Positions 9,490-41,296 of a DNA stretch of 42,861 nucleotides are shown in pieces (position 1 is the stretch's first letter; each line of letters begins with the position of its first letter). Location: positions 1 through 42,861 of the forward strand of contig NZ_CM008325.1 of the NCBI RefSeq assembly GCF_002464935.1, in the 5' to 3' direction. The notes under the pieces were generated by a model, which was not told the DNA's origin, ran no database searches, and worked only from the letters and a program-made list of their open reading frames with translations. The position numbers and the translations under genes are program-made. Origin of the DNA: Candidatus Enterovibrio escicola. GTDB taxonomy: Bacteria; Pseudomonadota; Gammaproteobacteria; Enterobacterales; Vibrionaceae.

Positions 9490-10273
9490 TTAATACACCT
9501 ATTTTTTTATCAAACTCATTCAAAAAAGAAAGCAATTGAATGTGCTCCGCTGATTTTAAATCGTACTCTAATATACTTTGATTGAAATGAGATGCCTCAG
9601 CGACTTTTGTTGTTCGTTGAATTTCAGAATTAAAAACCAAGCAACCGTGTTGTTCACGTAACATTTTAGTAAAGTGGTCTTGAACTTGAGTTGCCCGTTT
9701 TAACGTTTTATTCAACAAAATCCCTAAAATCATGATCTCAGGATTAAATGTTTTTTTGATTTTAGAAACGGATTTAATAATTTTGTCTACACCTTTTATG
9801 GAATCCGCTTCTGCTTCTGTCGGAATAAGAACGCCGGCACAAGAGGTTAAAGCGGAGAACTGTAGATTACCCACAGACGGAGGGCAATCAATGAAGACAA
9901 GATCATATTGTTCAGATAATTTATTAAGGTTTTCAGCAAAATTGGCTATTTCATCACTAGGACAATTGTTCTCAGCACTAATAAACGCGGTTGTACCTAA
10001 TATATGAAGCCTGTTGTTAACGACATAAGGTTTACCATAAAAATCTTCATCAAATAGAGAGATAGAATTCGATTCACCTACTTTTCGGGAAATAGAAATA
10101 GGTTTACTCTCTTCACTATAAAAAAACTTATCAGTCAAGTTATGTTGAGGATCTAAATCTAACAATAACGTTTTTTGTTGCTTCACATTTGAGTAATAGT
10201 AAGCAAGATTAAGAACTGTAGTAGTTTTACCAACACCACCTTTTTCGTTTGCTATAGTGAATATTTTTCCCAT
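9479..10273 (-). CDS. parA: ParA-family partition ATPase (264 aa)
   Basis: MGKIFTIANEKGGVGKTTTV carries the deviant Walker A motif (KGGVGKTT, residues 11-18); LLLDLDPQHNLT and YDLVFIDCPPSVG are the Walker A' and B regions. Size and motifs fit type I ParA without an N-terminal helix-turn-helix extension. It works with the overlapping parB to position plasmid copies. AAGGAA lies about 5 nt before the ATG. The IS982 copy E terminus begins only 15 bp upstream of the start codon, so the native promoter has been displaced and expression must come from within or beyond the IS. Confidence 0.88.
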   Translation of the reverse strand: MGKIFTIANEKGGVGKTTTVLNLAYYYSNVKQQKTLLLDLDPQHNLTDKFFYSEESKPISISRKVGESNSISLFDEDFYGKPYVVNNRLHILGTTAFISAENNCPSDEIANFAENLNKLSEQYDLVFIDCPPSVGNLQFSALTSCAGVLIPTEAEADSIKGVDKIIKSVSKIKKTFNPEIMILGILLNKTLKRATQVQDHFTKMLREQHGCLVFNSEIQRTTKVAEASHFNQSILEYDLKSAEHIQLLSFLNEFDKKIGVLNEK

Positions 10274-14809: not shown

Positions 14810-15811
14810 ATGTCATATACAATATTAACAGGGGATCGAGCTACAGGTCTCCTTCATTTAGGACATTACATTGGTTCACTTAAACTGCGAGTGGCACTAC
14901 AAGATGATCATCAACAGTCTATACTTATCGCTGACTTACAAGGGCTTACTGACAACGGACATGATCCCGAAAAAGTATCAGGCAACATCTTAAATGTGAT
15001 GGCTGATTATCTAGCTGTAGGCATTGACCCTGCTAAAACTAATATATGCCTACAATCAGGTTTACCGGCTCTGTCAGAGTTAACAATGTATTATGCCAAT
15101 ATCGTGAGCATTTCTCGTTTAGAACGTAATCCAACAGTCAAGGCAGAAATTGCAAATAAATCGTTCGGAAACTCCATTCCCGCAGGCTTTTTTACTTACC
15201 CTATCAGCCAGGCTGCCGATATCACAGCCTTTAGAGCTGACTGTGTTCCTGTCGGTGATGATCAAATACCCATGATAGAGCAAACTAATGAAATAGTACG
15301 TAAGATTAACAAGATAGCAGGAAGTGATATTTTAGTCGAGTGTGAACCTTTGTTGAGTAAAGTTACTCGCTTGCCGAGTGTGGATGGTAAGGCGAAAATG
15401 TCTAAATCTTTAGGTAACACCATAACATTAAGTGCCGATGAGAAAGAGATCACTGCTGCTGTAAATAAAATGTATACAGATCCCAACCACCTTAAAGTGA
15501 CAGACCCAGGACAAATTGAAGGTAACGTCGTCTTTACTTACCTTGATGCCTTTCACCCCGATGAAGACCTAGTACAGGAGCTCAAACTTCACTACATAAA
15601 AGGTGGTCTTGGTGATGGAAAGGTTAAAAATATCCTTGAAGAGTGTTTACAAGAAACCTTGCGTCCTATCAGGGAAAAACGCAGGAAGTTAATTAACGAT
15701 AAAGGCATGCTATTAGAAATACTTAAGCATGGTACAGAGAAAGCTGTCGTAGAAACAAATAAAGTCCTTTATGATGTCAAGCAAGCTTTCGGTTTGAATT
15801 TATTCATCTGA
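14810..15811 (+). CDS. trpS: Tryptophanyl-tRNA synthetase, second-type
   Basis: The 333-aa protein charges tRNA-Trp with tryptophan in the cytoplasm. The class I signatures are intact: HLGH (residues 16-19, HIGH motif, within TGDRATGLLHLGHYIGSL) and KMSKS (196-200). The GDRATGxLHLGHYxGSL form differs from the E. coli housekeeping form (GAQPSGELTIGNYMGAL) and matches the type found as a second TrpRS in several bacteria, where members have been linked to resistance to the TrpRS inhibitor indolmycin. GGAG lies about 10 nt before the ATG. The gene is complete and sits alone between inverted IS5 copies e and f. Whether it is the sole TrpRS, a spare copy or a resistance gene cannot be decided here. 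Confidence 0.92.
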   Translation: MSYTILTGDRATGLLHLGHYIGSLKLRVALQDDHQQSILIADLQGLTDNGHDPEKVSGNILNVMADYLAVGIDPAKTNICLQSGLPALSELTMYYANIVSISRLERNPTVKAEIANKSFGNSIPAGFFTYPISQAADITAFRADCVPVGDDQIPMIEQTNEIVRKINKIAGSDILVECEPLLSKVTRLPSVDGKAKMSKSLGNTITLSADEKEITAAVNKMYTDPNHLKVTDPGQIEGNVVFTYLDAFHPDEDLVQELKLHYIKGGLGDGKVKNILEECLQETLRPIREKRRKLINDKGMLLEILKHGTEKAVVETNKVLYDVKQAFGLNLFI

Positions 15812-17846: not shown

Positions 17847-20162
17847 ATGAAAATAGCTTTAAAGATAAAAACTGCAATAGTAGTGACCAGTATTTTCGCT
17901 GTCATAGCAACCGCAGTTTTGCTCACTGTAACAGCTAAAGAAACGTTGAGCAGTGCACTGGAGCAACAGGTGAAAAATCAACTTATTTCCGTTCGAGAAG
18001 CAAAAAAAATGGAGATTAGAAGCTACTTCGGTAATATACAAAAGCAACTAATTAACCTTGCTAACTCTACAATGACCGAAGATGCTATGTCGCAGTTTGC
18101 TCGGAGTTTCCAATCTGTACAGAGTGAAGCAACACCACTTCCCAACCAGGCACAAGTTCTTAAAGACTATTACATCAATGCATTTGGCAAAACCTACCTC
18201 GAAACGAACACAAGCAGTACCAACGCACTCTCTAATCTCGTAAAAATTAGTCTGACAGGTCAATTGCTTCAGCAAATATATATTGGCAACAATCCAAATT
18301 CTCTAGGCAATAAGTATGTCATGGATAAAGGTAGTGATGACACTACTTACAATAGAATCCATGAGGTTTACCATCCAAACTACCGAAAATTCCTCGAATC
18401 CTTTGGCTATTACGATATTTTTCTCGTCGATCTAAAAGGAAATGTGGTCTATTCCGTTTTTAAAGAACTGGATTACGCCACTAACCTTACTATTGGACCC
18501 TATGCACAAAGCGGCTTGGCCGATGCATTCAATACTTCAGTAAACCTGAGTAAGGGTGAGTACAGTTTCATTGACTTTAAGCCCTATTATCCGTCTTATG
18601 ACAGCCCTGCTTCTTTCATCAGTTCCCCCATAGTAAAGGAAGGAAAAACCATCGGCGTGCTTATTTTTCAAATGCCTATCGATAATATTAACGCCATCAT
18701 GACTTATAATGGAAAATGGCAGGAAGATGGATTAGGGAAAACTGGTGAATCTTTTCTTGTGGGCTCGGACAGGTTAAGTCGTTCACAAAGTCGGATGTTG
18801 GTTGAAAATAAAGAAGTGTACTTAGACAGTTTACGTGCCGAAGGCATAGCAGAATCCGTGGTTTCTCGTATCAACAAAACAGAATCCTCTGCGGGTCAAC
18901 AACTGATGACTTCAGACTATATTAGTAAGGCTCTAAATGGAATGAGAGGCTTTTCAACCGTCACCAATCATGCAAATAAGGAAGTTCTATCAGCATTTAC
19001 ACCAATCGATATATTAGGGAAACAATGGGCATTAATATCAGAAATCACACGTGAAGAGGCACTGTATGAAGTCACAGTACTCATCAATAAACTAATCACA
19101 GTTGTGGGTATTATAGGGACGATACTCGTGATTATTTCAGCCATTCTTGCTTGGATTATGGCCACTAGTATTAGCTACCCTATTTCCAGTTTGACCTCAC
19201 GTATAATCCATATTGCTAAAAACCATGATCTTACTCTTCGCCTGCCTATCCGAGGAAAAGATGAGCTATCTGAGCTGTCTCAAGCAATGAATCTCATGCT
19301 CGATGATTTCCTCAATGTTATCGAAGGTGCTGATAACACAATCAAGACTCTTAACACTGCATCAAGTGAAATTCAAAACAACATCGATACCATGCGAACA
19401 GAAATGGATAATCAAGCAACAAATTCCAACCAAGTGGCTACTGCGGTTACCCAAATGAGTGCATCAGTGAGTGAAGTAGCAGGTTTTGCAAAAAATGCCT
19501 CAGATTCGTCTGAACATGTTGTTCAGTCGGTCATAGAAAGCACCAATGTGGGTAATCGTTTGGTGAGTGAGATATCAGCACTGTCAGATAAAATGGACGA
19601 AGCCACAACATCAATGCAGCGATTGTCCACTGAGAGTGCTTCAATCGGTTCAGTGCTGGATGTAATTCATGGCATTGCTGAACAAACTAACTTATTAGCG
19701 TTAAATGCAGCGATTGAGGCCGCACGCGCTGGCGAGCAAGGCCGTGGCTTTAGTGTGGTCGCTGATGAAGTCCGTTCATTAGCTATTCGTACGAAAACAT
19801 CGACGGAAGAGATTCGCTCTAAAGTCGAGTCACTTCAAGCAGAAACTGGGAAAGCGGTCAGCGGAATTAACAGTGCGAACCAATTTGTCGCAAGTAGCGT
19901 TGAAAACTGCGGTAAAAACAATGAAATGTTGGAAGGAATAGCTCGCATGATGACTGAAATAAACGACATGAATACGCAAATTGCGACTGCAGCCAGTGAA
20001 CAATCTTTCGTAACAGAAGAAATCACCGAGAATGTTAACAACATAGCACACTCTGCTGGATCCGTATCAGAAAGAACCCATAGCATCGATGTGACTGCAA
20101 ACACCATCAATGAGCAGGCACGCCATCTAACCACTCAAATTGGGTTGTTCAATATTTTATAA
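17847..20162 (+). CDS. Methyl-accepting chemotaxis protein
   Basis: The 771-aa inner-membrane receptor has a first membrane helix at about 8-30, a large periplasmic sensor (about 35-405; [20 protein letters not shown] and [18 protein letters not shown] fit a double-Cache-type ligand domain), a second helix at about 412-436, a HAMP domain (about 437-490) and a cytoplasmic signalling hairpin whose conserved tip [20 protein letters not shown] is at about 611-630. There is no C-terminal NWETF-like tether. It should signal through CheW/CheA; the ligand is unknown. The reading frame is fully intact, which implies that motility or chemotaxis still matters to the host cell. The ribosome site is weak (TTAAGAA). 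IS30 begins 8 bp after the stop. Confidence 0.93.
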
Positions 20163-22858: not shown

Positions 22859-24157
22859 ATGAATATAAAAAAAAAGAAAAAACGTGTTGTTATCACTGGG
22901 ATTGGGTTGGTATCTCCTCTAGCTCATACTGTCGGTATGTCATGGGAAAGGCTTATTAATTGTGTATCTGGTATTAAATACTTACCTGAAGATATTTGTA
23001 GTAATCTCTCTGTTAAAATTGGTGGGTTAGTTCCAACTGTAGATCAAGATAAAAATGGGGGACTTGATCTAGATAAATTTATTACTCGGAAAGATAAAAA
23101 GAAGTCTGATAGATTTATACATTTGGCGTTAATTGCTGCTGCAGAAGCCATTAAACAAGCTGGTATTAGTGATTTGCCAGATCATAGCAAATTCAAAACT
23201 GCTACAATTATTGGTACAGGGATTGGTGGTTTTCACGCTATAACTAATTCCGTAAACTTGGTTCACAATGACAATAATAAGAGATTATCTCCATTTACGA
23301 TTCCGTCGTTTTTAGCTAATTTAGCAGCTGCGCATGTGTCTATAAAATACGGGTATAAAGGAATATTACAAGCCCCTGTTACTGCTTGTGCTGCAAGTGT
23401 CCAAAGTATTGGTGATGGGTTCAAATCTATTATGCATAGCGGTATGGATATCGCTGTAGTTGGTGGTGCTGAATCTTGTATTAATTCAGTGTCACTGAAT
23501 GGTTTCAATGCGGCTAAAGCATTATCAACAAATTTCAATGCAATACCTCAACAAGCATCTAGACCGTTTGATATTAAACGAGATGGATTTGTAATGAGCG
23601 AAGGAGCGGGTGTGTTAGTTCTAGAAGAACTGGATCATGCTATATCTAGAAGAGTAAATATCCTTGCTGAAATTGTGGGATATGGTACAACGTCTGACGC
23701 GTATCATATAACATCTGGACCTGCAAATGGAGAAGGTGCAGCGAGAGCCATGTTAATTGCTATTGAGTCCGCAGAAATTAAGCCCCAAAATATTGACTAT
23801 GTGAATGCTCATTCAACTTCAACCCCATTGGGGGATTTAGCCGAGCTCCAAGCCCTAAAATTAGTTTTTGGATTAAGTAATGAAACTAGTATTTCATCAA
23901 CAAAATCCTCAACTGGTCACCTCTTAGGTGCGGCAGGGGCTGTTGCTGCAATTTTTACAATTAAAGCGATTAATGAATCTATTATTCCTGCTTCCCTTAA
24001 TATTGTAGAATTACCTGAAGAAGCTTTTGGATTACATATCGTAGCCAATAAACCCATAAAAAAAATCATTAACTATGCTATGGTAAACGGATTCGGATTT
24101 GGAGGAGTAAACGCGTCGGTTATTTTGAAGTCATATGATAACGATATCAATAATTGA
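22859..24157 (+). CDS. fabF: 3-oxoacyl-ACP synthase II (KASII, FabF-like)
   Basis: The 432-aa condensing enzyme extends acyl-ACP with malonyl-ACP in fatty-acid synthesis. The catalytic triad is in place: Cys177 (PVTACAAS), His318 (NAHSTSTPLGD) and His354 (SSTGHLLGAAG). NGFGFGGVNAS near the end is the usual KAS glycine-rich loop. The length is slightly over the usual ~412 because of a Lys-rich start (MNIKKKKKRVVITGIG). It stands alone, without acpP or fabG beside it as in chromosomal loci. An IS6-type terminus begins directly after the stop codon. It could be a relocated essential gene, a copy tuned for membrane fluidity, or a bypass target for KAS inhibitors such as thiolactomycin; the sequence does not decide. 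Confidence 0.92.
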   Translation: MNIKKKKKRVVITGIGLVSPLAHTVGMSWERLINCVSGIKYLPEDICSNLSVKIGGLVPTVDQDKNGGLDLDKFITRKDKKKSDRFIHLALIAAAEAIKQAGISDLPDHSKFKTATIIGTGIGGFHAITNSVNLVHNDNNKRLSPFTIPSFLANLAAAHVSIKYGYKGILQAPVTACAASVQSIGDGFKSIMHSGMDIAVVGGAESCINSVSLNGFNAAKALSTNFNAIPQQASRPFDIKRDGFVMSEGAGVLVLEELDHAISRRVNILAEIVGYGTTSDAYHITSGPANGEGAARAMLIAIESAEIKPQNIDYVNAHSTSTPLGDLAELQALKLVFGLSNETSISSTKSSTGHLLGAAGAVAAIFTIKAINESIIPASLNIVELPEEAFGLHIVANKPIKKIINYAMVNGFGFGGVNASVILKSYDNDINN

Positions 24158-29860: not shown

Positions 29861-30663
29861 CCTCAGATCTGCATTTTCTTATCAAGCCGAGTCATCTTGA
29901 TACTAGATTTGGGATATATTTTTTAGTTGGTCAAAAATAGTTTCAATAGTAAATCGTTTCCGAAACATCAGGTGATCCCAAAGTTTCGCCACTTTGGGAT
30001 TCATATTTTATTTTACACCCGTTATCAGTGTCACTCCGTTGTCTGCAAATGCCCGCTCCACTGGGCCAGAAATATAACCTTTCTCTCCGGATAAATACCC
30101 CCAAAGTTCGTCAGTCATTTCCGATACAGGCTTTCTATCAACCACGTTAACCATCGTCACTTTGATTGAGATAATACCACCTTGGTCATTGATAATAAGG
30201 TGTAATTTGAAGCTGTAGAACCACCACATCGTTCCTTTTCCTCGCTTCAAGGTACCTTTAGAAACCTGATGTCTGAGAATGTGTAGGTTGTGATAAACCT
30301 GTAGCTTAGACGAATCAACGAAGGTAATCCCTATCGGCCTTGCCTGAGGGTGAGTGAGGTAGAGGTAAACAAAGTGGATGTAATAGGTTTTATAGTCTCT
30401 ATACCCCGATTGATGGAAAGCTATCACTATCATCATCAGTTCGCTAACGGAGAGGCGAGAAGGTTTGTTTCTTTGTTTGATACCAGAAGAAATTAAGCGG
30501 TCTTCCCATGCAGGGAAGACCATCTGGCAGAAGTCATCGACATCGACGAAAATAGCGTCTAAGTTATGCATGCCCAACTCCTTATGCAGTCAATAGTTTT
30601 TTCTAAAACGAATCAGATCGCAACTTTGGCATTTAGTTCATTTCTCATGTGCAGCTTAGGTTA
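29858..30663 (-). mobile_element. IS982-family element (copy D), best-preserved frame
   Basis: The open frame 30008-30577 (189 aa, MGMHNLDAIFVDVDDFCQMV...) covers most of the transposase. A stretch of about 25 codons present in other copies (LTHPQ-ARPIGITFVDSSK junction) is missing, and the C-terminus is frameshifted. Termini are near 29858 and 30663. Confidence 0.85.
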
Positions 30664-30759: not shown

Positions 30760-31536
30760 ATGAAAGCAGTTATTCTAGCTGGCGGTTTTGGCACACGTAT
30801 AAGCGAAGAAACACACCTTAAACCGAAACCCATGATAGGAATAGGTGGCAAACCCATCTTGTGGCATATCATGAAAACCTACTCTCACTATGGCATTAAC
30901 GATTTTGTGATTTGTTTAGGCTATAAAGGCTATTTAATTAAAGAATATTTCTTTAACTACTCCAAACACTCATCAGATATCACCGTAGACTTAAGTGATG
31001 ATAGCCTACAAGTACACAATAACTATGCTGAATCTTGGAAAGTGACCTTAGTAGATACAGGTGAAGACGTAATGACGGGTGGACGTTTAAGAAGAGTATC
31101 CCCATATATTAAAGACGAATCAGCATTTTGCTTAACCTATGGTGATGGTGTTAGCGATGTGAACATTGGCGAGCTCATTAAATTTCATCAACAACATGGT
31201 AAACTAGCAACCTTAACCGCCATTACCCCACTTGAGAGATTTGGTGTTCTAGATTTAGCAGAGGACCATCGTATTCAAGCATTCCGAGAAAAACCCAAAG
31301 AAAATAAAGTGTATATTAACGGTGGTTTTTTTGTACTTTCTCCTCAAGTGCTAAACTATATAGACGGTGATGATATTTCCTTTGAAAAACAGCCCTTGGA
31401 AAAACTAACAGCCGAGAACAACTTATATTCGTTCAAACACAATGGGTTCTGGCAATGCATGGATACCTTGCGCGATAAAAACTATTTAGAAGAACTGTGG
31501 GATACTAGACAAGCTCCATGGAAAGTATGGAGTTAA
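30760..31536 (+). CDS. rfbF: Glucose-1-phosphate cytidylyltransferase
   Basis: The 258-aa enzyme makes CDP-glucose from glucose-1-phosphate and CTP, the entry step to CDP-deoxysugars. MKAVILAGGFGTRISEETHL with KPKPMIGIGGKPILWHIMK is the nucleotidyl-transferase signature; LTYGDGVSDVNI carries the metal-binding Asp; GFWQCMDTLRDK is typical for the RfbF/AscA/DdhA branch. It has the usual length (~257). It is first in a tight run of eight genes and overlaps the next by 19 bp. There is no clear ribosome site before the ATG, only the AT-rich tail of the hairpin region. Confidence 0.92.
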   Translation: MKAVILAGGFGTRISEETHLKPKPMIGIGGKPILWHIMKTYSHYGINDFVICLGYKGYLIKEYFFNYSKHSSDITVDLSDDSLQVHNNYAESWKVTLVDTGEDVMTGGRLRRVSPYIKDESAFCLTYGDGVSDVNIGELIKFHQQHGKLATLTAITPLERFGVLDLAEDHRIQAFREKPKENKVYINGGFFVLSPQVLNYIDGDDISFEKQPLEKLTAENNLYSFKHNGFWQCMDTLRDKNYLEELWDTRQAPWKVWS

Positions 31537-32600
31537 AACAGTTCTTTCAAGACAAAAAAGTCTTTGTCACAGGGCACACAGGTTTTAAAGGTGCTTGGTT
31601 ATGTTGGTGGCTTAAAACCCTCGGAGCAGAAGTTACTGGTTTTGCACTACCACCAGTTGATACACGTGGTAACTTATTTAACCTCACCACACTTAAATCT
31701 GAAATAAATTCTATAGAAGCCGATATAAATGATTTAACTAAGCTGACTAAAGCACTACAAAAGAGTACAGCTCAGATAGTACTACATTTAGCAGCACAAC
31801 CACTAGTGTTAGCTTCTTATGATGACCCCGTAGGCAATTACCAAACTAATGTTATGGGTACTATTAATATGCTTGAGGCAATTCGTCAGAGTCCTAACGT
31901 ACAAGCATCTGTGATGGTAACTACAGATAAATGCTATGAAAACAAAGAATGGCTGTGGCCATACAAAGAAACCGATCAACTCGGTGGGCACGATCCTTAT
32001 TCATCAAGTAAAGCTATGGCAGAAATTGCCATTAGTGCCTATTATCGATCATTCTTAAAGCAAAAAAATATAGGTATAGCTTCAGCCAGAGCTGGCAATG
32101 TAATTGGTGGTGGTGACTTTGCAGATAACAGAATAATTCCAGATATAGTAGAGTCTATAGTAGAACACAAAACGCTTACTTTGCGCAATCCTAATGCAAT
32201 CCGCCCTTGGCAGCATGTACTCGATGCCTTGTATGGCTATTTGCAGCTAACTAAAAGTCTGTACACAGATAGAGAAACCTTTTCTACCAGCTTTAACTTT
32301 AGTCCCCAAGATACCTCTAACCAACACACAGTTGAGTATATAACCCAAACATTTATTGACGCCTGCGGCGTAGGGGAGTATTGTATAGACAGCAAAGAGG
32401 CTGAAGTACACGAAGCCACTAACTTGCGCCTAGATGCCAGCAAAGCACGCAGTATGCTTTGCTGGCAGCCTGCCTTTACTACTCAGCAAGGTATAGGATT
32501 TACAGCTAGTTGGTATAAAAATCATCTTAATAAAACTAACAATCCAAAAGACTACACCCTTGAGCAAATAGCTACTTACAATAAGTTAATTAACCAATAA
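31518..32600 (+). CDS. rfbG: CDP-glucose 4,6-dehydratase
   Basis: The 360-aa extended short-chain dehydrogenase converts CDP-glucose to CDP-4-keto-6-deoxyglucose with bound NAD. KVFVTGHTGFKGAWLCWWL is the Rossmann GxxGxxG loop with the FKG form characteristic of RfbG/DdhB; YSSSKAMAEIA contains the catalytic Tyr-X3-Lys; RPWQHVLD is also typical. The start at 31518 overlaps rfbF; ATG 31527 is an equally possible start. Its product is the substrate of the next gene. Confidence 0.92.
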   Translation: MESMELKQFFQDKKVFVTGHTGFKGAWLCWWLKTLGAEVTGFALPPVDTRGNLFNLTTLKSEINSIEADINDLTKLTKALQKSTAQIVLHLAAQPLVLASYDDPVGNYQTNVMGTINMLEAIRQSPNVQASVMVTTDKCYENKEWLWPYKETDQLGGHDPYSSSKAMAEIAISAYYRSFLKQKNIGIASARAGNVIGGGDFADNRIIPDIVESIVEHKTLTLRNPNAIRPWQHVLDALYGYLQLTKSLYTDRETFSTSFNFSPQDTSNQHTVEYITQTFIDACGVGEYCIDSKEAEVHEATNLRLDASKARSMLCWQPAFTTQQGIGFTASWYKNHLNKTNNPKDYTLEQIATYNKLINQ

Positions 32601-32607
32601 AATAATT

Positions 32608-33816
32608 ATGGCTAAAGAAGACTTTTTACACATCCCTTACGGTTTAACCGTACATGGCCAAGAAGAAATAGATGCAGTAATCCATGTTCTTAAGACATCC
32701 ACCCAAATGGGTAAACATGTACGAGAACTAGAAGTAAAAATTGCAGCTAGCTTTGAAAAAAAACACGGAATAATGGTTAACTCTGGCTCTTCTGCTCTTT
32801 TACTCGCCATGGAAATTATGGATTTACCCAAGGGCAGTGAAGTTATCACCCCAGCACTTACCTTTGCTACAACTGTAGGTTATATAATTCGTAATGGCTT
32901 AGTGCCTGCCTTTGTTGATGTAGAACCAGATACCTACTGTATCGATCCCAATAAAATTGAAGAAATGATTGCCCCAAAAACCCGCGCAATAATTGCACCC
33001 CATTTAATCGGGAACATTGTTAACTGGCAAGAGTTACAGCCCCTAATTAAAAGATATAATCTACAAATTCTAGAAGATTCTGCCGATACCTTGGGAAGCA
33101 CTATAAATGGAGTATCTAGTGGTAAGTTGTCAGATTTAAGCATTACTAGTTTTTATGGTTCACATGTAATTAACTGTGCAGGTAATGGCGGTATGTTATG
33201 CGTTAATGATGATAAACTAGCTAAAAAAGCTAAACTATTACGTTCTTGGGGTAGAAGCTCCTCATTATTTATTGAATCAGAAGCAATTGAAAACCGCTTT
33301 AATGTTAATTTAGATGGCATAGATTATGATGCTAAATTTGTATTTGAAGAAATTGGGCACAACTTAGAGCCATCAGAAATGGGAGCAGCCTTTGGTTTAG
33401 TGCAATTAAATAAACTAGATCACAACATAAATGAGCGTACTAAAAACTTTAACATTCATACCAAATTTTTTAATAAATACCAAGAATTTTTTGTACTGCC
33501 GCAACAAACAGAAAATGCCAGAACAGGTTGGTTAGCTTATCCTTTGATTATAAAAGAAGATGCACCTTTTAATCGTCGTGAAATGCAGATCTTTTTAGAA
33601 AAACGCAATATTCAAACTAGAGTAGTATTCACTGGTAATATTCTTCGCCAACCTGGTTTCGCTAATGTCGAGATGCGAACTAGTAAAGACGGTTACCCTC
33701 AAGCAGACAATGTAATGCGTGGTGGTATTCTGGTAGCTTGCCATCATGGGTTGACGCAAGAAATGCGAGAGCATATACATGCAAGCTGTGAATTATTTTT
33801 AGGGAAATTTATTTAA
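32608..33816 (+). CDS. rfbH: PLP/PMP-type CDP-4-keto-6-deoxyglucose 3-dehydrase (RfbH-like)
   Basis: The 402-aa DegT/DnrJ/EryC1-fold protein has His186 (SFYGSHVINCAGNGG) where aminotransferases carry the PLP-binding Lys, the mark of sugar 3-deoxygenases such as RfbH/E1 and ColD. So it should remove the C3 hydroxyl rather than transaminate. In RfbH/E1 proteins a Cys-rich loop after the WGRD motif binds a [2Fe-2S] cluster; here that loop reads SWGRSSSLFIESEAIENRF, without cysteines. It may therefore work without the iron-sulfur cluster, as ColD does with GDP-sugars. It follows rfbG by 7 bp. An aminotransferase role is unlikely without the Lys. Confidence 0.85.
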   Translation: MAKEDFLHIPYGLTVHGQEEIDAVIHVLKTSTQMGKHVRELEVKIAASFEKKHGIMVNSGSSALLLAMEIMDLPKGSEVITPALTFATTVGYIIRNGLVPAFVDVEPDTYCIDPNKIEEMIAPKTRAIIAPHLIGNIVNWQELQPLIKRYNLQILEDSADTLGSTINGVSSGKLSDLSITSFYGSHVINCAGNGGMLCVNDDKLAKKAKLLRSWGRSSSLFIESEAIENRFNVNLDGIDYDAKFVFEEIGHNLEPSEMGAAFGLVQLNKLDHNINERTKNFNIHTKFFNKYQEFFVLPQQTENARTGWLAYPLIIKEDAPFNRREMQIFLEKRNIQTRVVFTGNILRQPGFANVEMRTSKDGYPQADNVMRGGILVACHHGLTQEMREHIHASCELFLGKFI

Positions 33817-33827
33817 GTGGTATTTTA

Positions 33828-34868
33828 ATGATTAAACCGCTACCCCAAGATGATTTGCAGTTTATTTACAGCAAGATATCTTCAACTATTGAAGACTTAG
33901 CTAATAAACATATATTTATTACTGGTGCTACAGGTTTTATTGGCTCTTGGTTAACTGAATTTTTAGTGTTTGCTGTAGAAAAATATCAACTTAATTTATC
34001 TATTAGTATATTAACTCGTAATAAAGGTAAGTTCAGTAGCAGCTACCCATATTTATCTACAGCAACATGCTTGCATGTGATAGAAGGAGATATTAGAGAG
34101 TTAGATATTGATCTGCTAGATAAAAGCACTGATTATATTATTCATGCAGCAACTGATACTAATGCTTCCTTGAATCAAAACAATCCTCTTCTAATAGCAG
34201 ACACTATAGTACAAGGAACACAAAACGTTTTGAATTTAGCACGTAATCATAGCGTTACTAATATCTTGTTTCTTAGCTCTGGAGCTATATACGGCAAACA
34301 ACCAATAGATTTGCAAGGGTTTGAAGAAGATTACCCTAGTGCACCTGATTGCAATAATTCTCTTAGTAGTTATGGTGAAGCTAAACGCTATGCTGAGTTA
34401 TTGTGTGCAATCTATAATAAACAATATGGGTTGCCTTATGTAACTGCACGTTGTTTTGCGTTTATTGGACCAAGGTTACCTTTAGATACTCATTTTGCTA
34501 TAGGTAACTTTTTGCATAATGTATTGAATAATCAAGATATTATTATATCTGGAAATGGTAAATCAGTTAGGAGTTATATGTATGCTGCTGATTTAATCAT
34601 TTGGTTATTGGTTATTTTAACTAAGGCAAAAACTGCTAGTGTATATAATGTTGGTGCTGATCAGGCTTACAGTATTGAAGAGTTAGCACAAACTATTATC
34701 TCATCTACTAATACACCTATCAAATATAGAATTCTAGGAAAAGATAGCAACAGCAGTGTTTATACACCTAATATTAATAAAGCTATAACAAGATTAGGTG
34801 TGAATATCTATACTGATTTACAGGATGCGATAATAAAAACGTTACAATGCCATCAAGACTACAGTTAA
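33828..34868 (+). CDS. NAD-dependent epimerase/dehydratase-family reductase
   Basis: This 346-aa extended SDR protein has the GATGFIGSW Rossmann loop (NKHIFITGATGFIGSWLTEF, about residues 28-47) and SSYGEAKRYAELL with the Tyr-X3-Lys pair. ARCFAFIGPRLPLDTHFAIG and YNVGADQAYSIEEL are usual nucleotide-sugar SDR features. Position after the 3-dehydrase and before the transketolase suggests it reduces or epimerises a keto group of the CDP-sugar, comparable in place to the reductases of the abequose, tyvelose and yersiniose pathways. The exact substrate cannot be read from sequence. The ribosome site is weak. Confidence 0.82.
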   Translation: MIKPLPQDDLQFIYSKISSTIEDLANKHIFITGATGFIGSWLTEFLVFAVEKYQLNLSISILTRNKGKFSSSYPYLSTATCLHVIEGDIRELDIDLLDKSTDYIIHAATDTNASLNQNNPLLIADTIVQGTQNVLNLARNHSVTNILFLSSGAIYGKQPIDLQGFEEDYPSAPDCNNSLSSYGEAKRYAELLCAIYNKQYGLPYVTARCFAFIGPRLPLDTHFAIGNFLHNVLNNQDIIISGNGKSVRSYMYAADLIIWLLVILTKAKTASVYNVGADQAYSIEELAQTIISSTNTPIKYRILGKDSNSSVYTPNINKAITRLGVNIYTDLQDAIIKTLQCHQDYS

Positions 34869-34872
34869 CTTT

Positions 34873-35835
34873 ATGACTAAAATAAAAGAACATAAAAAAC
34901 TTATATCAATAGTAGTAGCTGCTTACAACGAAGAAAGTAACTTGGAAGAACTATATAAACAATTAATTGAACTGTTTACTAATAATAATGACTATGAATT
35001 TGAAGTGTTTTTTATTGATAATGGCTCGCAAGATACCACATGGTGCGTAGCAACAAAGATAGCTAATAATGATAAACGCTTTAATGTTGTTAAGTTAGCT
35101 AGAAATTTTCTAACTGACGGAGCCATAACTGCTGGATTAACTTTTATTAACGGAGATGCTGCTGTAATGATGGCTGGAGATCTACAAGATCCCCCTCAAC
35201 TTATTTCTCAATTCATCAAGAAATGGGAAGTGGGTTATGAAAATGTGTATCAAATTGTCTCTAAGCGTTCTGGAACAAGCTTTATTAGAAAAAGTAATTC
35301 ACAGCTCTTTTATTGGTTAGTTAATGTTATGACTAAAGGTATGTTGCCAAAAAATGTTAGTGATTTTCGCTTAGTTGATAAAAAAGTTTATCTAGTTATT
35401 AACCAAATGCATGAAAGAAATCGTTTCATTAGAGGGTTGTTTGCTTGGATAGGCTTTAAGTCTATAGGTATCCCATACGAGAGACCCTTTAGGCACTCTG
35501 GTCATTCTAAAGCTAATACTTTGCATGTGTTAAGTTTAGCCATGAAGGGTATTTTTGCTCATAGTTATATCCCATTACAGATGGTGATGTATGTTGGCAT
35601 ATTGGTTTCCGTGTCTTCTTTTTTCTTCTTGGCATATACCGTTATAAAAGCATTCTTATATGGTGTACCATTTGCTGGTTATGGCTCAATTATGGGAGTA
35701 GTATTATTGATGTTTGGCTTTTTGTTTATTTTCCTTGGAATAATTGGTAAATATATTGGCTTAATTTACGAAGAAGTAAAGGTTCGACCTAACTTTATTG
35801 TCAGTGAGGTATATCCTCCAATTAATAATAAATAA
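34873..35835 (+). CDS. GtrB/DPMS-like family 2 glycosyltransferase
   Basis: This 320-aa protein has a GT2 catalytic domain (SIVVAAYNEESNLEELYKQL, then FFIDNGSQDTT; MMAGDLQDPPQLI with the DXD-like Asp pair; RNRFIRGLFAWIGFKS) and two C-terminal membrane helices (about 235-258 and 270-300). This is the layout of GtrB, which transfers a sugar to undecaprenyl phosphate on the cytoplasmic side. GtrA-like and GT-C-like genes in the same cassette support this role. The donor is expected to be the CDP-sugar made by the neighbours, but that is inference; family members usually use UDP- or GDP-sugars. Confidence 0.85.
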   Translation: MTKIKEHKKLISIVVAAYNEESNLEELYKQLIELFTNNNDYEFEVFFIDNGSQDTTWCVATKIANNDKRFNVVKLARNFLTDGAITAGLTFINGDAAVMMAGDLQDPPQLISQFIKKWEVGYENVYQIVSKRSGTSFIRKSNSQLFYWLVNVMTKGMLPKNVSDFRLVDKKVYLVINQMHERNRFIRGLFAWIGFKSIGIPYERPFRHSGHSKANTLHVLSLAMKGIFAHSYIPLQMVMYVGILVSVSSFFFLAYTVIKAFLYGVPFAGYGSIMGVVLLMFGFLFIFLGIIGKYIGLIYEEVKVRPNFIVSEVYPPINNK

Positions 35836-35853
35836 TATAATATACTTAGAAAA

Positions 35854-36669
35854 ATGCCGATAAAAACAACCCAAGAATTTGCCCGTGTCATCAGACATGA
35901 TGTAATTAACATGATCCATCAGGCTAAGTCTTCACATATTGGCAGCTGTCTCTCAATTGCTGATATAGTTGCCGTACTCTATGATCATGTAATGCGGTTT
36001 GATGCCAACAATCCCAAGTGGCAAGAGCGTGATAGATTTATTCTTAGCAAAGGGCATGCCACTGCTATAGTTTATGCAGCTCTCGCACATAAAAGTTTTT
36101 TCCCTAAAAAGTGGCTCAGTGAATATTGTGACGATGGTAAACCCCTATCAGGGCATATTACCCACAAACATGTACCCGGAGTGGAGGCATCAACTGGTTC
36201 TTTAGCCCATGGCATGCCAATTGGTACTGGTATGTGTTTAGCACTTAAAGCAGATAAACTAGCTAGTAAGGTCTATGTGCTGATTAGTGATGGTGAGTGT
36301 GATGAAGGCACTACTTGGGAGGCAGCCTTATTTGCTGGACATCACAAACTCAATAACCTGATTGTCTTGCTTGATTATAATAAAATTCAAAGTTACGGCA
36401 GTATTGAAAATGTACTTGATCTGCACCCCCTCAAAGACAAATGGCTCTCTTTTAACTGGCAAGTAGATGAAATAGATGGACACAACCACCAACAACTTAT
36501 AGATGCCATAGAGTCAGCCCAACAAACCACCGCACCCACAGTAATTATTTGCCATACTGTAAAAGGTAAAGGGGTGAGCTTTATGGAAAACAACCTCGCA
36601 TGGCATTACAAATACCCTGATGATGCACAACTGCAACAAGCACTAGCAGAGGTAAGCGGTGCGAAATAG
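35854..36669 (+). CDS. Transketolase N-terminal subunit (split transketolase)
   Basis: This 271-aa protein is the thiamine-diphosphate-binding half of a transketolase. RHDVINMIHQAKSSHIGSCL, FILSKGHATAIVYAAL, GSLAHGMPIGTGMCLALKAD and SDGECDEGTTWEAALFAGHH (ThDP/metal motif, with Asn-Lys downstream in LLDYNKIQ) are all present. A classical transketolase has about 650 aa in one chain; here the two halves are separate, overlapping genes. In a CDP-deoxysugar cluster the likely role is transfer of a two-carbon ketol unit onto the 4-keto sugar, forming a branch. Confidence 0.9.
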   Translation: MPIKTTQEFARVIRHDVINMIHQAKSSHIGSCLSIADIVAVLYDHVMRFDANNPKWQERDRFILSKGHATAIVYAALAHKSFFPKKWLSEYCDDGKPLSGHITHKHVPGVEASTGSLAHGMPIGTGMCLALKADKLASKVYVLISDGECDEGTTWEAALFAGHHKLNNLIVLLDYNKIQSYGSIENVLDLHPLKDKWLSFNWQVDEIDGHNHQQLIDAIESAQQTTAPTVIICHTVKGKGVSFMENNLAWHYKYPDDAQLQQALAEVSGAK

Positions 36670-37561
36670 TTTTGTTGATAATTTAGTTGCTGCAGCTAGC
36701 TGCAATAAAGATATTTATCTTCTGTGCGGAGATCTTGGCTATGGAGTGCTTGATAAATTTGCGGAGCAATTTCCTGAGAGATTTATCAATGTAGGTATAG
36801 CAGAACAAAATATGACTGGTATGGCAGCAGGTTTGGCTATGTCTGGTAAAAAAGTATTTACCTATTCGATTGTAAACTTTGCTATAGCACGTTGCCTAGA
36901 GCAAATACGAAATGATATTTGTTATCATAACCTAGATGTAACTATAGTAGCTGTAGGTGGTGGCTTACCCTATGGTACTCATGGTTATACTCACTTAGGG
37001 GTGGAAGATGTTTCTTTCATTAGAAGCTTACCTAATATAAATACTTATATCCCAGCTGACAGATACGAGCTTAAACATGCTATGGCTCAAATACTCGGTG
37101 CTAATAAACCAACCTATCTAAGGCTAGCACGTGGCGGTGAAGCAGATATTCACAATACAGCAGTAACTAGTAACTTGATAGCAGTATTACCAGAACAAAA
37201 AATTAACTTTATTTGCTCTGGTACTGTGCTCGAAGAAGCTTGTGAGGCAGCTAAACTACTTAAAGTAAAAAATATAGAAGTTGGTATATTAAGCTTAATG
37301 TCGCCAGATCCACAGCTAGCTTCATCAATTAGAGAAATATCAGCTAGAACTAAAGCATTAATTAGTGTTGAAGAACATATAACTTATGGTGGTATTGGCA
37401 GTTTTATTGCGGAAAGTATCTCATCTTTAGGTAAGCATGCTAAATTAGTGCGCTGTGGTATAGAGCATAACAAACTTAATCATACAGGTAGCCAGAGGTT
37501 TTTACGTAAAGCTAATAATATAGATGCTGCTTCTTTAGTTAAGATAGTAGAATATTTATGA
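36659..37561 (+). CDS. Transketolase C-terminal subunit (split transketolase)
   Basis: The 300-aa protein holds the pyrimidine-binding and C-terminal domains. INVGIAEQNMTGMAAGLAMS contains the catalytic Glu that activates ThDP; YGTHGYTHLGVEDVSFIRSL and YLRLARGGE follow the family pattern. It starts with GTG at 36659, overlapping the N-terminal subunit by 11 bp, so the two are cotranslated and should form an alpha2beta2-type enzyme. With the stand-alone halves next to rfbFGH, central carbon metabolism is a less likely role than sugar branching. Confidence 0.9.
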   Translation: MRNSFVDNLVAAASCNKDIYLLCGDLGYGVLDKFAEQFPERFINVGIAEQNMTGMAAGLAMSGKKVFTYSIVNFAIARCLEQIRNDICYHNLDVTIVAVGGGLPYGTHGYTHLGVEDVSFIRSLPNINTYIPADRYELKHAMAQILGANKPTYLRLARGGEADIHNTAVTSNLIAVLPEQKINFICSGTVLEEACEAAKLLKVKNIEVGILSLMSPDPQLASSIREISARTKALISVEEHITYGGIGSFIAESISSLGKHAKLVRCGIEHNKLNHTGSQRFLRKANNIDAASLVKIVEYL

Positions 37562-37968
37562 TAATGCCAACACCAGCATTAAAAATATTTTTTACTCTAC
37601 CTGAAAAGATCCGTTTTATCCTAGTTGGTGGTTTTAATACTATCTTTGGTTTTGTGGTATTTACTCTGCTTTGCTTATTAGCAGATGATTATTCTAACTA
37701 CCTAATAATTTTAGTCAGCAGTAACCTTATTGCGGTAGTAGTAGCATTTCTAATGTTGAAGTTTTTAGTTTTTCAAACCAAAGGTAATTACCTAAAGGAG
37801 TTTATGCGTTGTTACTTAACTTACTTAGTTATGCTTGGCATAAATGTATTATTATTATATTTAATGGTAGATGTATTAGCACAAGATATAGTTATATCAC
37901 AGTTTGTTATTACTGTTTTAATAGTAATATTTAGCTATTTAGGTCACAAATGTTTTTCGTTTAATTGA
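37558..37968 (+). CDS. GtrA-like flippase
   Basis: The 136-aa protein has four membrane helices (about 15-37, 42-64, 78-100, 106-130) and the start pattern IRFILVGGFNTIFGFVVFTL and end HKCFSFN of the GtrA family, thought to flip undecaprenyl-phosphate-linked sugars to the periplasmic face. It overlaps the transketolase gene by 4 bp (ATGA), so it belongs to the same operon. It pairs with the GtrB-like transferase upstream. Confidence 0.88.
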   Translation: MIMPTPALKIFFTLPEKIRFILVGGFNTIFGFVVFTLLCLLADDYSNYLIILVSSNLIAVVVAFLMLKFLVFQTKGNYLKEFMRCYLTYLVMLGINVLLLYLMVDVLAQDIVISQFVITVLIVIFSYLGHKCFSFN

Positions 37969-37979
37969 TAACTCTGTGG

Positions 37980-39599
37980 TTACTGTGTTTTCTTGTATAT
38001 TAACACCTTGGTATCTTTAACTTCAATACTATCTATAAGCTGCAAGTTATAATCCTTAATATACTTTTTTAATCTTAATGTTTCTGTAGGTTGTTGCCCT
38101 GAACCAGCATTACCAAATGCTGTCAGCATTTCATTAAACATAACATAATTAGGCTGATATTTATCTATATAATCAGTACCACAACCCTGCCAGTAATGGC
38201 AACCTTGAGATTTCATCTTATCAGGCAATGCTACATATTGGTCATAAACTAATTTATCTGTGGGTACTAAATGTTTACTAACATATTCATAAGTTTTATA
38301 TGCTATACCCTCCTTATATAGTAATCTAGTAATAAGTGTTGGTGTAAGTGTGTAGAGGTTTGACAGTATAGTAAGTAGTGCAGAATAAATAAAAGATGTG
38401 TTAGCAAATAGCCTTAAGTGCTTTAATCGAATATCCGTAATATTTGATACATAATTCATTATGGCAAATAAACTTAGTACAAAGAATGGATATAAAGGTT
38501 GTAGATAATGACCACTAATCATTGTTCTATTACCAATAATAGTGATACAAAGAACAAAGAATAAGCCTATAGTATTTGTTATATATAAAAATAAGCTGGC
38601 TCTTTTCTTATTAATATACATTAATAAAGTTATTACAAAAGTTATGGGTAGTAATATAATAGAGAGTTGAATGACGGAGACAGACATTAATAACTTATAC
38701 CAAGATATTAATGAATCTGTAAAAGACATAGCATATTTACTAGTTATCCAACTAGTACTTAAATTTATTTGATATTCAATGAAGTTTGTCAAATCTAAAA
38801 TAGCAAAGGGATGAATTATAAATAATATAGCTAGTGCTAATAAAGTTGTCCTGCCAAGAATTTTTATAAAATCCATAGAAAATACGAACTGCATATATTT
38901 TTGTTGTTGTTCTTTACAATAGAAATGTAGAAAAGAAAATAAGATAGGTAGTGACATGAAGAAAAAGATTTGTTTGCTTAATGTTGCTAACACTAAGCAG
39001 ATTAATCCTGCAAAATAAAGTTTATAATCTTGCGGATTATCTATGAACTTTAGCAAAGCTAGTATGCCTGAAAATATAAACATAAGCCCTGTAGTTTCAG
39101 GATGTATGAAATAGAATAATTGTGCACCAACAGGCGAAATGATATATAAAATGCTAGCACATCCAGCAAGTACAATACTGTTAAATAGTTTTTTAGCTAT
39201 TTCATAAAAAACTAGCACAGATATTAACCCTATCATAAACAAGATAAACCTTATACTAATATACAGTATTAAGTTATTTTCTGTACCTGTAAGCCAGAAA
39301 AAGAGTTTAATTGGTGCTAATAAAACAAAGTTAATTGCAAAATATGTCCAACCATAGAATTTGCTATGATAACCACCTTGCATATTATAGTAAGGAGGAT
39401 TAAAAAGATTTTCTATAGCAACAACATGGCTACCTGGATCAACCTCAAAACCAAGAATTAAACCTAAATCTTCTACTATAATAAATACATGAGGTAAGTA
39501 TAAAATGGCAAAGATTATAGATAATAATAGATAAACTTTATCTTTGCTTAGGTGCTTATATAAGCCAGAGCTTAATTTAAAGAAGATACTTTCTTGCAT
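37980..39599 (-). CDS. GT-C-like membrane glycosyltransferase
   Basis: The 539-aa protein has about ten membrane helices over residues 25-430 and a soluble C-terminal domain. The first periplasmic loop (VEDLGLILGFEVDPGSHVVA) carries acidic residues where GT-C/PMT-type enzymes have their catalytic Asp/Glu. As the membrane transferase beside GtrA and GtrB it is the best candidate for the periplasmic step: moving the lipid-linked sugar onto an O-antigen or other glycan. It converges with gtrA, 11 bp apart. The C-terminal domain (CHYWQGCGTDYIDKYQPNYV) is duplicated in a decayed copy upstream (39602-40018). The acceptor is unknown. Confidence 0.78.
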   Translation of the reverse strand: MQESIFFKLSSGLYKHLSKDKVYLLLSIIFAILYLPHVFIIVEDLGLILGFEVDPGSHVVAIENLFNPPYYNMQGGYHSKFYGWTYFAINFVLLAPIKLFFWLTGTENNLILYISIRFILFMIGLISVLVFYEIAKKLFNSIVLAGCASILYIISPVGAQLFYFIHPETTGLMFIFSGILALLKFIDNPQDYKLYFAGLICLVLATLSKQIFFFMSLPILFSFLHFYCKEQQQKYMQFVFSMDFIKILGRTTLLALAILFIIHPFAILDLTNFIEYQINLSTSWITSKYAMSFTDSLISWYKLLMSVSVIQLSIILLPITFVITLLMYINKKRASLFLYITNTIGLFFVLCITIIGNRTMISGHYLQPLYPFFVLSLFAIMNYVSNITDIRLKHLRLFANTSFIYSALLTILSNLYTLTPTLITRLLYKEGIAYKTYEYVSKHLVPTDKLVYDQYVALPDKMKSQGCHYWQGCGTDYIDKYQPNYVMFNEMLTAFGNAGSGQQPTETLRLKKYIKDYNLQLIDSIEVKDTKVLIYKKTQ

Positions 39600-39601
39600 G
39601 A

Positions 39602-40018
39602 TTATTTCTTATAAACAGAGATGGTTATATTATCTACTTTTAAAGTATCTCCTAATTGTAAATTACATTCATGCAGATACTGCTTTAAATCGCTCATTTT
39701 TTGCCTAAAAAAGTAAACTAAGTTATGTATTCAATAAGTTGAATGGTTCGTTGGTCTGACAGGTAACCCAAGTGTCGATGACTGCAGATGTCCTGTGTCT
39801 TAACAAGAATTTGTAATCCATGAAAGAATTTATTTTTATACGGAAATAAACGTGTTGAACACACGACCGGCAAATAAAGTATTAAAAATCATATAATTAG
39901 GCTGATATCTGTCTATATAGTCACTGCCCGAGTCTTGCCAGTAATGACAGTTTTGCGATTTTATATGAGCAGGCAAGATCTTAAAAAGATCTTTTTGTCC
40001 AAAAATATGATAGCACAA
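39602..40018 (-). pseudogene. Decayed second copy of the GT-C glycosyltransferase (C-terminal end)
   Basis: Two pieces resemble the end of the neighbouring 539-aa protein. Piece one (about 39890-39990): KSQNCHYWQDSGSDYIDRYQ compared with KSQGCHYWQGCGTDYIDKYQ. Piece two (39602-39697, to the stop): LKQYLHECNLQLGDTLKV compared with LKKYIKDYNLQLIDSIEV, both ending YKK. About 190 bp of unrelated or scrambled sequence lies between. The rest of the gene is gone. A tandem pair of transferases therefore once stood here, perhaps for two linkages. Confidence 0.8.
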
Positions 40019-40236: not shown

Positions 40237-40825
40237 CTAAGGGCTTGGCCAACGGTACTCTCCAGTTAATGCAATGTGCTCCCAGCTCAAGGGCGATATA
40301 TGCTGAAGAAGCTTGTCATCAACCTCTATACCTTGTTTTCTAAGGATTTCTACTGCTTTTTTCAAGTAGATTGTATTCCAAAGAACAATTGCCGCTGGCG
40401 CGGTAGCGCTGTTGCTCAAAACTACGGTCTCTAATTTCACCCAGTTGGTTAAAGAAAACGGTGCGTGCAAGCGCATTACGAGCTTCACCTTTGTTTAAAC
40501 CCACTTGGACTCGTCGTCTGAGCTCCGGACTTTGAATCCACTCCAGCATGAATAACGTACGCTCAAGCCGCCCAAAATCCCTTAGCGCGAGTGCTAGACC
40601 GTTTTGCCTCGGGTAACTTCCTAGCTTGTGCAAGATTAGAGACGCGGTCACAGATCCCTGTCTAATTGATGAGGCAAGCCTTAATATGTCATCCCAATAG
40701 TCTTCGATGAGATCTTTTTCTTTCTGTGTGAATGACGTTAACCGAATTAGCGTCGATTCATCGCCAGGAATACTTTTTAGCTCCTCACGCTCTAGTTGAG
40801 TTAACAATGGTTGTTTGCGTGGCAT
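40237..40825 (-). pseudogene. tnpA: Tn3-family transposase, internally deleted
   Basis: The start [20 protein letters not shown] is the N-terminus of a Tn3-type TnpA (normally ~1000 aa). After about 45 residues it jumps in frame to the C-terminal region ([40 protein letters not shown]). A further small deletion shifts the frame just before [20 protein letters not shown] and the end [16 protein letters not shown]. The catalytic domain is lost, leaving a non-autonomous remnant. tnpA and tnpR are divergent, as in the Tn3 subgroup. GC is clearly higher than in the sugar cassette, consistent with separate arrival. Confidence 0.88.
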
Positions 40826-40855
40826 GCAGACTTTCCTCTATTGTAAAAACGTTCG

Positions 40856-40910
40856 TTTGTGCAACGGTTATTAACGCAAGGCAGAATCAAGGTTTTGCGC
40901 GTTGCACAAA
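40856..40910. promoter_or_regulatory. res-like site between tnpA and tnpR
   Basis: TTTGTGCAACG (40856-40866) and CGTTGCACAAA (40900-40910) form a perfect 11-bp inverted repeat in the tnpA-tnpR intergenic region, where Tn3-type res sites bind resolvase and hold both promoters. Confidence 0.65.
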
Positions 40911-40953
40911 TATATTGCAAAATAAAAACAAATGGCAACAGGTTATCGCAACA

Positions 40954-41296
40954 ATGAAATGTGGTTACGCACGAATATCAACTCAAGATCAAAACACCCA
41001 AGTACAGGTAGCAGCGCTCAAGAGCGCTGGGTGCAAACTGGTCTTCGAGGAACAAGCCTCTGGCGGCCGCTGGGATCGACCTGAGTTACACCGTCTGCTT
41101 GAGCAATTGCGCCCCGGCGATACGGTGGTAGTTTGAAAACTAGACCGACTATCGCGGTCGTTAAAAGATTTGCTAACGATCTTAGAAAAAACAGAAATTG
41201 CTGGAGCGACCTTTTTGAGTCTCACAGAATCAATCGATACCTCAGCCCCTGCTAGACGTATGATGATGCAGATAGTGGGTTCGTTTGCTGAATCCC
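40954..41296 (+). pseudogene. tnpR: Tn3-type serine resolvase, nonsense-mutated and truncated
   Basis: MKCGYARISTQDQNTQVQVA carries the catalytic Ser, and the helix LEQLRPGDTVVV is followed by TGA (41134-41136) where TnpR proteins have Trp (VVWKLDRLSRS). Reading continues in frame through KLDRLSRSLKDLLTILEKTE and RRMMMQIVGSFAE, then ends at an IS5 fragment at about 41297, losing the DNA-binding domain. A TGG-to-TGA change plus truncation leaves no active product. Confidence 0.88.

Follow-up and report, generated by a model that had tools for sequence, protein, structure and literature searches.

Positions 1 to 42,861 of contig NZ_CM008325.1 from Candidatus Enterovibrio escicola (RefSeq assembly GCF_002464935.1; C1:1–42861 of the host genome, hereafter the window) contain a cassette of nine open genes at 30760–39599, which probably makes a C-branched cytidine diphosphate (CDP)-3,6-dideoxyhexose and passes it to a Gtr-type lipid-carrier route. 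The product is most likely CDP-3,6-dideoxy-4-C-(1,2-dihydroxyethyl)hexose, moved via the lipid carrier. The cassette is a variant of the branched-sugar pathway of yersiniose and erwiniose, with a split transketolase (TktN and TktC) as its probable carbon ligase, and it is a recurrent module, not a one-off. On balance, we also favor the broader view that a widespread family of split transketolases in Pseudomonadota, Actinomycetota and Patescibacteria acts on CDP-deoxysugar ketones and not on aldose phosphates, swaps with YerE-type lyases, and in some loci is joined by a CDP-sugar C3-dehydrase free of iron-sulfur (Fe-S) clusters.

Eight of the genes are co-directional (30760–37968), with spacings of −19 to +18 bases, in the order rfbF, rfbG, rfbH-like, extended short-chain dehydrogenase/reductase (SDR), gtrB, tktN, tktC and gtrA; the ninth converges on them (37980–39599, minus strand). 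The original prediction, made from the sequence of the window, named these nine genes in this order, and all nine were found present and open. Of the interval it gave (30760–40018), the part with the genes stands and the final ~420 bases do not, as the GT-C gene ends at 39599.

By family membership, RfbF (30760–31536, +; TIGR02623, 422 bits, cut-off 300), a glucose-1-phosphate cytidylyltransferase forming CDP-glucose, and RfbG (31518–32600, +; TIGR02622, 463 bits, cut-off 278), a CDP-glucose 4,6-dehydratase, would together yield CDP-4-keto-6-deoxyglucose. The RfbH-like C3-dehydrase (32608–33816, +; PRK15407, 306 bits, below the cut-off of 423) belongs to a subfamily lacking the iron-sulfur cysteines, and its residues suggest that it takes off the C3 oxygen in the manner of ColD, with neither a cluster nor the E3 reductase. 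TktN (35854–36669, +; PF00456; 6yak, 2e-86) is the pyrophosphate-binding half of a thiamine diphosphate (ThDP)-dependent split transketolase, and TktC (36659–37561, +; PF02779, PF02780; 6yaj, 1e-42) is its pyrimidine-binding and C-terminal half. With hydroxypyruvate, a ketose phosphate or a similar ketol as donor of two carbons, they would together place a hydroxyacetyl group on the C4 ketone, a transfer that we infer from the exchange with YerE-type enzymes and from the remodeled acceptor site described below. The extended SDR (33828–34868, +; PF01370), which probably reduces the ketone on the branch, would then give the dihydroxyethyl sugar, a hydroxylated relative of yersiniose.

With the pathways of yersiniose (YerE) and erwiniose (ErwE, JanthE), this scheme shares CDP-glucose as the start, 4,6-dehydration, C3 deoxygenation, a ThDP enzyme that creates a tertiary alcohol at the ketone, and a reduction; in common with the yersiniose pathway, the cassette has rfbF, rfbG and an RfbH-type 3-dehydrase (the last below the NCBIfam cut-off). 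It differs in using a split transketolase and not a decarboxylase-type lyase, with hydroxyacetyl as the expected branch, and in having no E3 gene and a C3-dehydrase without iron-sulfur cysteines. None of the nine cassette proteins has the TPP_enzyme N/M/C domains of YerE-type enzymes. The chemistry put forward in the original prediction is most likely right, with the lipid-carrier step and the move of hydroxyacetyl onto a CDP-sugar as the parts that we infer, whereas the unusual RfbH had been overlooked.

For miharamycin and amipurimycin, split transketolases are the proposed enzymes for attaching hydroxyacetyl to a keto sugar; 13 sequences of that kind, none of them assayed, are listed, every one from Streptomycetes (PMC12247030). 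As described, these resemble the present enzyme in the proposed reaction; they are set apart by the CDP-sugar and Gtr-type partners found here, and by the proteobacterial, actinobacterial and other genomes involved. Among the titles and abstract beginnings of open-licence PubMed Central papers, we found none that links a split transketolase to CDP-sugar or O-antigen clusters. According to a 2025 review, that transketolases accept ketones in sugar branching is only a proposal, with no structure, and enzymes for functionalised tertiary alcohols are wanted in biocatalysis (PMC12247030). The cassette offers a compact, testable case of a putative ketone-accepting transketolase with a predicted acceptor, for which the YerE-type loci, with homologous partner enzymes and a different ThDP enzyme, are a matched control. 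A CDP-sugar 3-dehydrase that works free of an iron-sulfur cluster is a further prediction from the cassette.

Exchange of the split transketolase with YerE-type lyases

The best evidence that the transketolase would perform the branching step is its replacement by a YerE-type enzyme in related loci. In 339 gammaproteobacterial genomes, relatives of the cassette SDR at E ≤ 1e-60 were limited to four genomes, the host and three others. One of these (G153, locus L061) has the arrangement rfbF-rfbG-TktN-TktC-SDR-GtrB. The other two (G177, locus L131; G273, locus L132) carry rfbF, rfbG, the RfbH subfamily of the window, SDR, GtrB and GtrA (identified by a tblastn match in L131 and a Pfam match in L132), with identities to the window of 64 and 62% for rfbF, 46 and 44% for rfbG, 66 and 61% for rfbH, and 41% each for the SDR. 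A split-transketolase match is absent from the 19.9 kb read in L131 and L132, and both instead encode an acetolactate-synthase-type ThDP lyase (612 or 623 amino acids; TPP_enzyme N/M/C). The closest solved relative of these lyases is 8rph (413 and 788 bits), which is JanthE (PMC12188165), described as a YerE-like lyase (PMC12247030). A 2-oxo-acid aldolase gene lies nearby (HpcH/HpaI in L131; DmpG-type, with an acetaldehyde dehydrogenase, in L132), which fits lyases with longer hydroxy-keto-acid donors, as described for ErwE (PMC12247030).

A fifth SDR relative (L179, 41% identity) is paired with a YerE-like enzyme (52%), so that all five loci found with this SDR (window, L061, L131, L132 and L179) have a ThDP carbon ligase, either the split transketolase or a YerE-like lyase. 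In an alignment of the window SDR with its close homologs, the Ser and the YxxxK motif are retained. One module with either ThDP ligase is as expected if both perform the branching step. The proposal that the split transketolase stands in the YerE slot is supported by L131, L132 and L179, where the YerE-type enzyme holds that place beside homologous partner genes.

The exchange was also surveyed from the side of rfbF in a phylum-wide sample with 97 non-own matches; 87 loci were read, the window not among them, after 8 matches lying close to a contig start and 2 that were second copies had been set aside. A split transketolase was found in 8 of these loci, a YerE-like enzyme in 10 and both in none, an absence of overlap that is not significant alone, as both are rare. 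With only 31–32% identity, four of the 10 YerE-like enzymes may instead be ordinary acetolactate synthases, and seven of the eight split-transketolase loci were already known from the transketolase side.

A split-transketolase clade with a remodeled acceptor site

For both TktN and TktC the best solved match is the split transketolase of Carboxydothermus hydrogenoformans (6YAK/6YAJ), which shows the same two-chain domain split; it is described as α2β2 on reconstitution and as the only transketolase of its organism (PMC7661550). The two window proteins are separate pyrophosphate-binding and pyrimidine-binding/C-terminal chains that carry the ThDP residues and the catalytic Glu. The annotated relative L005 and loci such as L008, L034 and L060 likewise encode TktN and TktC by two genes, which shows that the split does not come from an error in the window sequence. 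The host genome has a normal fused transketolase on contig C12, and a role of the split enzyme as the pentose-phosphate transketolase of the host was rejected on this ground.

A tree was built from 63 joined TktN+TktC rows, the window and the fused host enzyme among them. It included 14 of 16 loci from one search (L010 and L013, which are cut off, were dropped), the plasmid match H11 (1 of 453 records), and 9 of 11, 17 of 17 and 20 of 51 non-own matches of further searches, the last selection being made so that all 13 matches at E ≤ 1e-80 (one already in) entered the tree. The window pair falls inside a clade of 34 rows (support 99/97), to which 21 of the 22 rows whose locus combines rfbF with rfbG belong. 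Its members are from Gammaproteobacteria and other Pseudomonadota, among them the Methylovirgula plasmid locus L005, and from Actinomycetota, Myxococcota and Patescibacteria; several stem from metagenome assemblies, and no rfbF lies within the stretch of L016, the Myxococcota member. rfbF lies near 23 of the 34 clade rows, compared with 1 of the 28 split transketolases outside the clade (Fisher p = 1.6e-7), and GtrB near 22 of 34 versus 1 of 28; p-values for the clade neighborhoods range from 1e-7 to 1e-6, with kinship ignored in all of them. At the level of genomes, rfbF is present in 12 of 13 with a TktN homolog at E ≤ 1e-80 versus 82 of 355 others, but here the samples differ and several genomes share a genus, and our argument rests on adjacency instead. 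The original prediction had proposed co-occurrence of this kind as a check, which the adjacency of rfbF, rfbG and GtrB bears out: the neighborhood is conserved elsewhere, and the split enzyme does not group with the fused enzyme of the host. Its view that the three modules are not usually seen together did not hold, the combination occurring in at least three phyla.

Residues are numbered as in E. coli transketolase; they were placed by motif spacing and compared against the fused host enzyme, and S385, for which the mapping onto the split enzyme is unreliable, was not used. The window keeps the equivalents of H26, H66, H100, H261, H473 and E411, and the clade as a whole keeps the ThDP residues, the catalytic Glu and the His set (except L020, without the H261 equivalent). 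At the H461 position all 34 clade rows, the window included, have Gly, and D469 is replaced in all 34 by Leu, Gln, Ala, Tyr, Met or His (His in the window). The window enzyme thereby differs from pentose-phosphate transketolase, from the fused enzyme of its own host and from the Carboxydothermus enzyme, the latter two retaining both residues. The R520 position is Lys in 25 and Arg in 8 of the 34 rows, and a Tyr or Phe follows the GDLG motif in 34 of 34 versus 1 of 28 other split transketolases. In the locus L158, which was found in the rfbF survey and has an unbroken E3-rfbF-rfbG-rfbH-TktN-TktC order, TktC has Gly, Leu and Lys at the three positions. H461 is described as associated with the substrate phosphate in E. 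coli transketolase, and the substitutions reported to raise its activity on non-phosphorylated aldehydes include H461S, D469T/A and R520V/Q (PMC3657141, PMC5073344). Read against these mutants, the loss of H461 and D469 marks a remodeled acceptor site, and it does not by itself name the acceptor.

Several further loci of this type have features of their own. L005, on plasmid pHY1 of the soil bacterium Methylovirgula sp. HY1, is a second plasmid-borne case, with rfbF-rfbG-SDR-rfbH-TktN-TktC and a convergent GT2 gene and gtrA. L060 contains a gene pair for a sulfotransferase and an APH-type phosphotransferase (L060:2018–4053, by Pfam), with homologous pairs, by clustering, in the rfbF/split-transketolase loci L006, L014 and L021; their presence suggests that the branched sugar of these four loci may be sulfated or phosphorylated. 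One scan also gave split-transketolase matches on 34 IMG/VR viral contigs (L223–L256), several beside DegT- and SDR-like genes; none of the 34 has an rfbF match, so that no phage-borne CDP cassette was found among them.

The RfbH-like dehydrase and alternative readings of the cassette

The best solved match of the window RfbH-like protein is E1 (RfbH/DdhC; 3bcx/3bb8, 206 bits), with ColD in fourth place (147 bits). It forms a subfamily with the proteins of L008, L131 and L132, which, in a separate comparison, are 61–65% identical to it, while three Fe-S RfbH proteins are 30–33% identical. E1 is described as holding a [2Fe-2S] cluster on four cysteines and as having the E3 reductase as partner, and ColD as having no cluster and regenerating pyridoxamine phosphate from glutamate (PMC8987622). 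All four members of the subfamily have the motif SFYGSH, in which His replaces the transaminase Lys as in both E1 and ColD, and none has the cysteine-rich loop of E1. In the ED-C-C stretch no cysteine is present in the window, L008 and L131, and one is kept in L132; the window protein, unlike E1, has none of the cluster cysteines at equivalent places. From ColD, which uses a GDP-sugar, it is distinguished by its CDP-sugar partner genes.

For E3 (RfbI/DdhD) the window gives no match, and the host genome none at full length. The best match there covers only residues 96–315 of 319 and sits just after two adjoining luciferase-family genes; because of this position and the missing ferredoxin part, it is probably LuxG. 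A canonical Fe-S RfbH served by an unlinked E3 was rejected, given the missing cysteines and the lack of a full-length E3 in the host genome. On the same two grounds the window protein probably has a ColD-like mechanism with no cluster, and the missing cysteines would account for a cassette without E3. Among the loci with Fe-S RfbH, E3 is nearby in L034, L158 and L178, and is not in L005, L062, L100 and L102, so linkage to E3 is not required. The subfamily of the window is rare (1 of 398 genomes at E ≤ 1e-110, this being the host, and 0 of 87 rfbF loci), and in four of four loci (window, L008, L131, L132) it is accompanied by a ThDP carbon ligase of either type.

Several observations weigh against the pathway proposed here. 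R520, the third residue of the acceptor site, is still Arg in the window, and the loss of H461 and D469 also occurs in two other split-transketolase clades, mostly without rfbFG, and is therefore not specific to CDP-sugars. The rows with rfbF and rfbG do not form one clade (10 changes on the tree versus a mean of 18.4 when shuffled), several forks are weak, and several branches, that of the window among them, are long. In 11 of the 34 clade rows there is no rfbF in the fetched stretch; the eight searchable genomes, which represent nine of these rows, have rfbF elsewhere in five cases and lack it in three (one of the three being only 81% complete), where the background is 95 of 369 sampled Pseudomonadota. 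Only 6 of the 21 rfbF- and rfbG-bearing clade rows have rfbH nearby, so that the naming of rfbH as a cassette member, true of the window, becomes an option across the clade. For the GT-C gene no homolog was found in the fetched loci, and its single-sequence structure model (predicted local distance difference test, 43) is too poor for use; moreover, we know of no GtrB-family enzymes with CDP-sugar donors.

The 15 clade rows without rfbH in the fetched stretch (e.g., L007, L009, L060, L061, L095–L097) lend some weight to another order of events, in which C3 deoxygenation follows the action of the split transketolase or does not occur, the C2 unit being added to CDP-4-keto-6-deoxyglucose and the RfbH-like enzyme working on another branch or later. 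In those loci CDP-4-keto-6-deoxyglucose may be the acceptor. The rfbH label of the tree loci was assigned with the window protein as query and missed some Fe-S RfbH. For the window we regard this order as unlikely: its rfbH lies between rfbG and the SDR gene, the YerE-type loci L131 and L132 retain the same RfbH subfamily, and the acceptor of YerE is described as a 3,6-dideoxy-4-keto sugar (PMC12247030). There is less to be said for an ordinary dideoxyhexose cassette, one whose RfbFGH and SDR yield a CDP-sugar resembling paratose or abequose, with a transketolase that only supplies sugar-phosphate metabolism or has an unrelated role. C4 reduction is possible for the SDR family, but the host retains a full fused transketolase, the split enzyme has lost H461 and D469, its clade lies mostly near rfbF, and a YerE-type enzyme replaces it beside the same SDR, which together make this reading very improbable.

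Transfer of an acetyl unit from a pyruvate-type donor, giving yersiniose itself, would resemble the α-keto-acid dehydrogenase-type branching enzymes described for aldgamycin and kosinostatin (PMC12247030). TktC scores 131 bits with the DXS model TIGR00204, close to the 137 bits of its best transketolase model (NF004559). TktN, however, is a transketolase N-domain (PF00456, 157 bits, versus 38 for DXP_synthase_N) and keeps the transketolase His residues, including H100, which binds the donor C1 hydroxyl, and we give an acetyl donor hardly any credence. Hydroxyacetyl transfer to a CDP-3,6-dideoxy-4-keto sugar is the reading that we retain.

The two other clades without H461 and D469 are both supported (L064, L068, L069, L070 and L113; and L035, L065, L066, L067, L107–L110 and L112). 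Several of their members lie in polysaccharide-like loci beside SDR and DegT genes, and rfbF and rfbG occur together in only 1 of the 14 rows (L067). Perhaps these enzymes accept ketones as well, on other nucleotide sugars.

Delivery genes, host genome and flanks

Judging from family and gene order, the GtrB-type polyprenyl-phosphate glycosyltransferase (34873–35835, +; PF00535; phrog_841 'GtrB-like O-antigen conversion', 268 bits; two C-terminal hydrophobic segments) would put the sugar on polyprenyl phosphate. The GtrA-type lipid-linked sugar flippase (37558–37968, +; PF04138, 59 bits; four hydrophobic segments) would flip it, and the GT-C-like membrane glycosyltransferase (37980–39599, −; PF13231, 33 bits, cut-off 26; eight hydrophobic segments), a candidate for the strain-specific transferase GtrC, would attach it to a surface glycan. 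These three genes suggest a lipid-carrier transfer outside the cytoplasm. As in the GtrABC systems of O-antigen modification, GtrA and GtrB are both present and stand beside a GT-C-like gene. The usual donor of GtrABC is UDP-glucose, whereas the cassette brings its own nucleotide-sugar pathway, with a CDP-branched sugar as the expected donor.

From the lack of Wzx and Wzy genes it had been concluded that an existing glycan is probably decorated. The genes are indeed absent from the cassette, but this says little of the acceptor, since two Wzy_C-domain proteins are encoded elsewhere in the host genome. One of the two genes adjoins genes for a lipid A acyltransferase and a glycosyltransferase/deacetylase, which makes lipopolysaccharide a plausible acceptor.

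Ca. Enterovibrio escacola MJ02 is described as the glowing symbiont of the deep-sea anglerfish Melanocetus johnsonii, with 974 predicted pseudogenes and four circular plasmids (PMC6020299). The host genome as analyzed comprises 39 contigs and 2,645,619 bases. The window is a probable plasmid, as suggested by its ParA/ParB genes (8605–10273) and by short matches to plasmids, that of Vibrio tapetis among them. Coding by open reading frames of at least 100 amino acids amounts to 99% in the cassette, 37% in positions 1–30700 and 35% beyond 39599. A decaying symbiont genome retains an intact surface-sugar cassette on what is probably a plasmid.

On the left the cassette is flanked by a transposase fragment (30008–30577, −; PF13612, 8e-35), and on the right by fragments of a Tn3-type transposase (40340–40825, −; PF01526, 2e-43) and a resolvase (40732–41136, +; PF00239, 5e-14). 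Positions 1–30700 have few, scattered open genes at low coding density. Besides the ParA/ParB pair, isolated open genes there encode a tRNA synthetase class I W/Y (14810–15811), a chemotaxis receptor (17847–20162) and a ketoacyl synthase (22859–24157).

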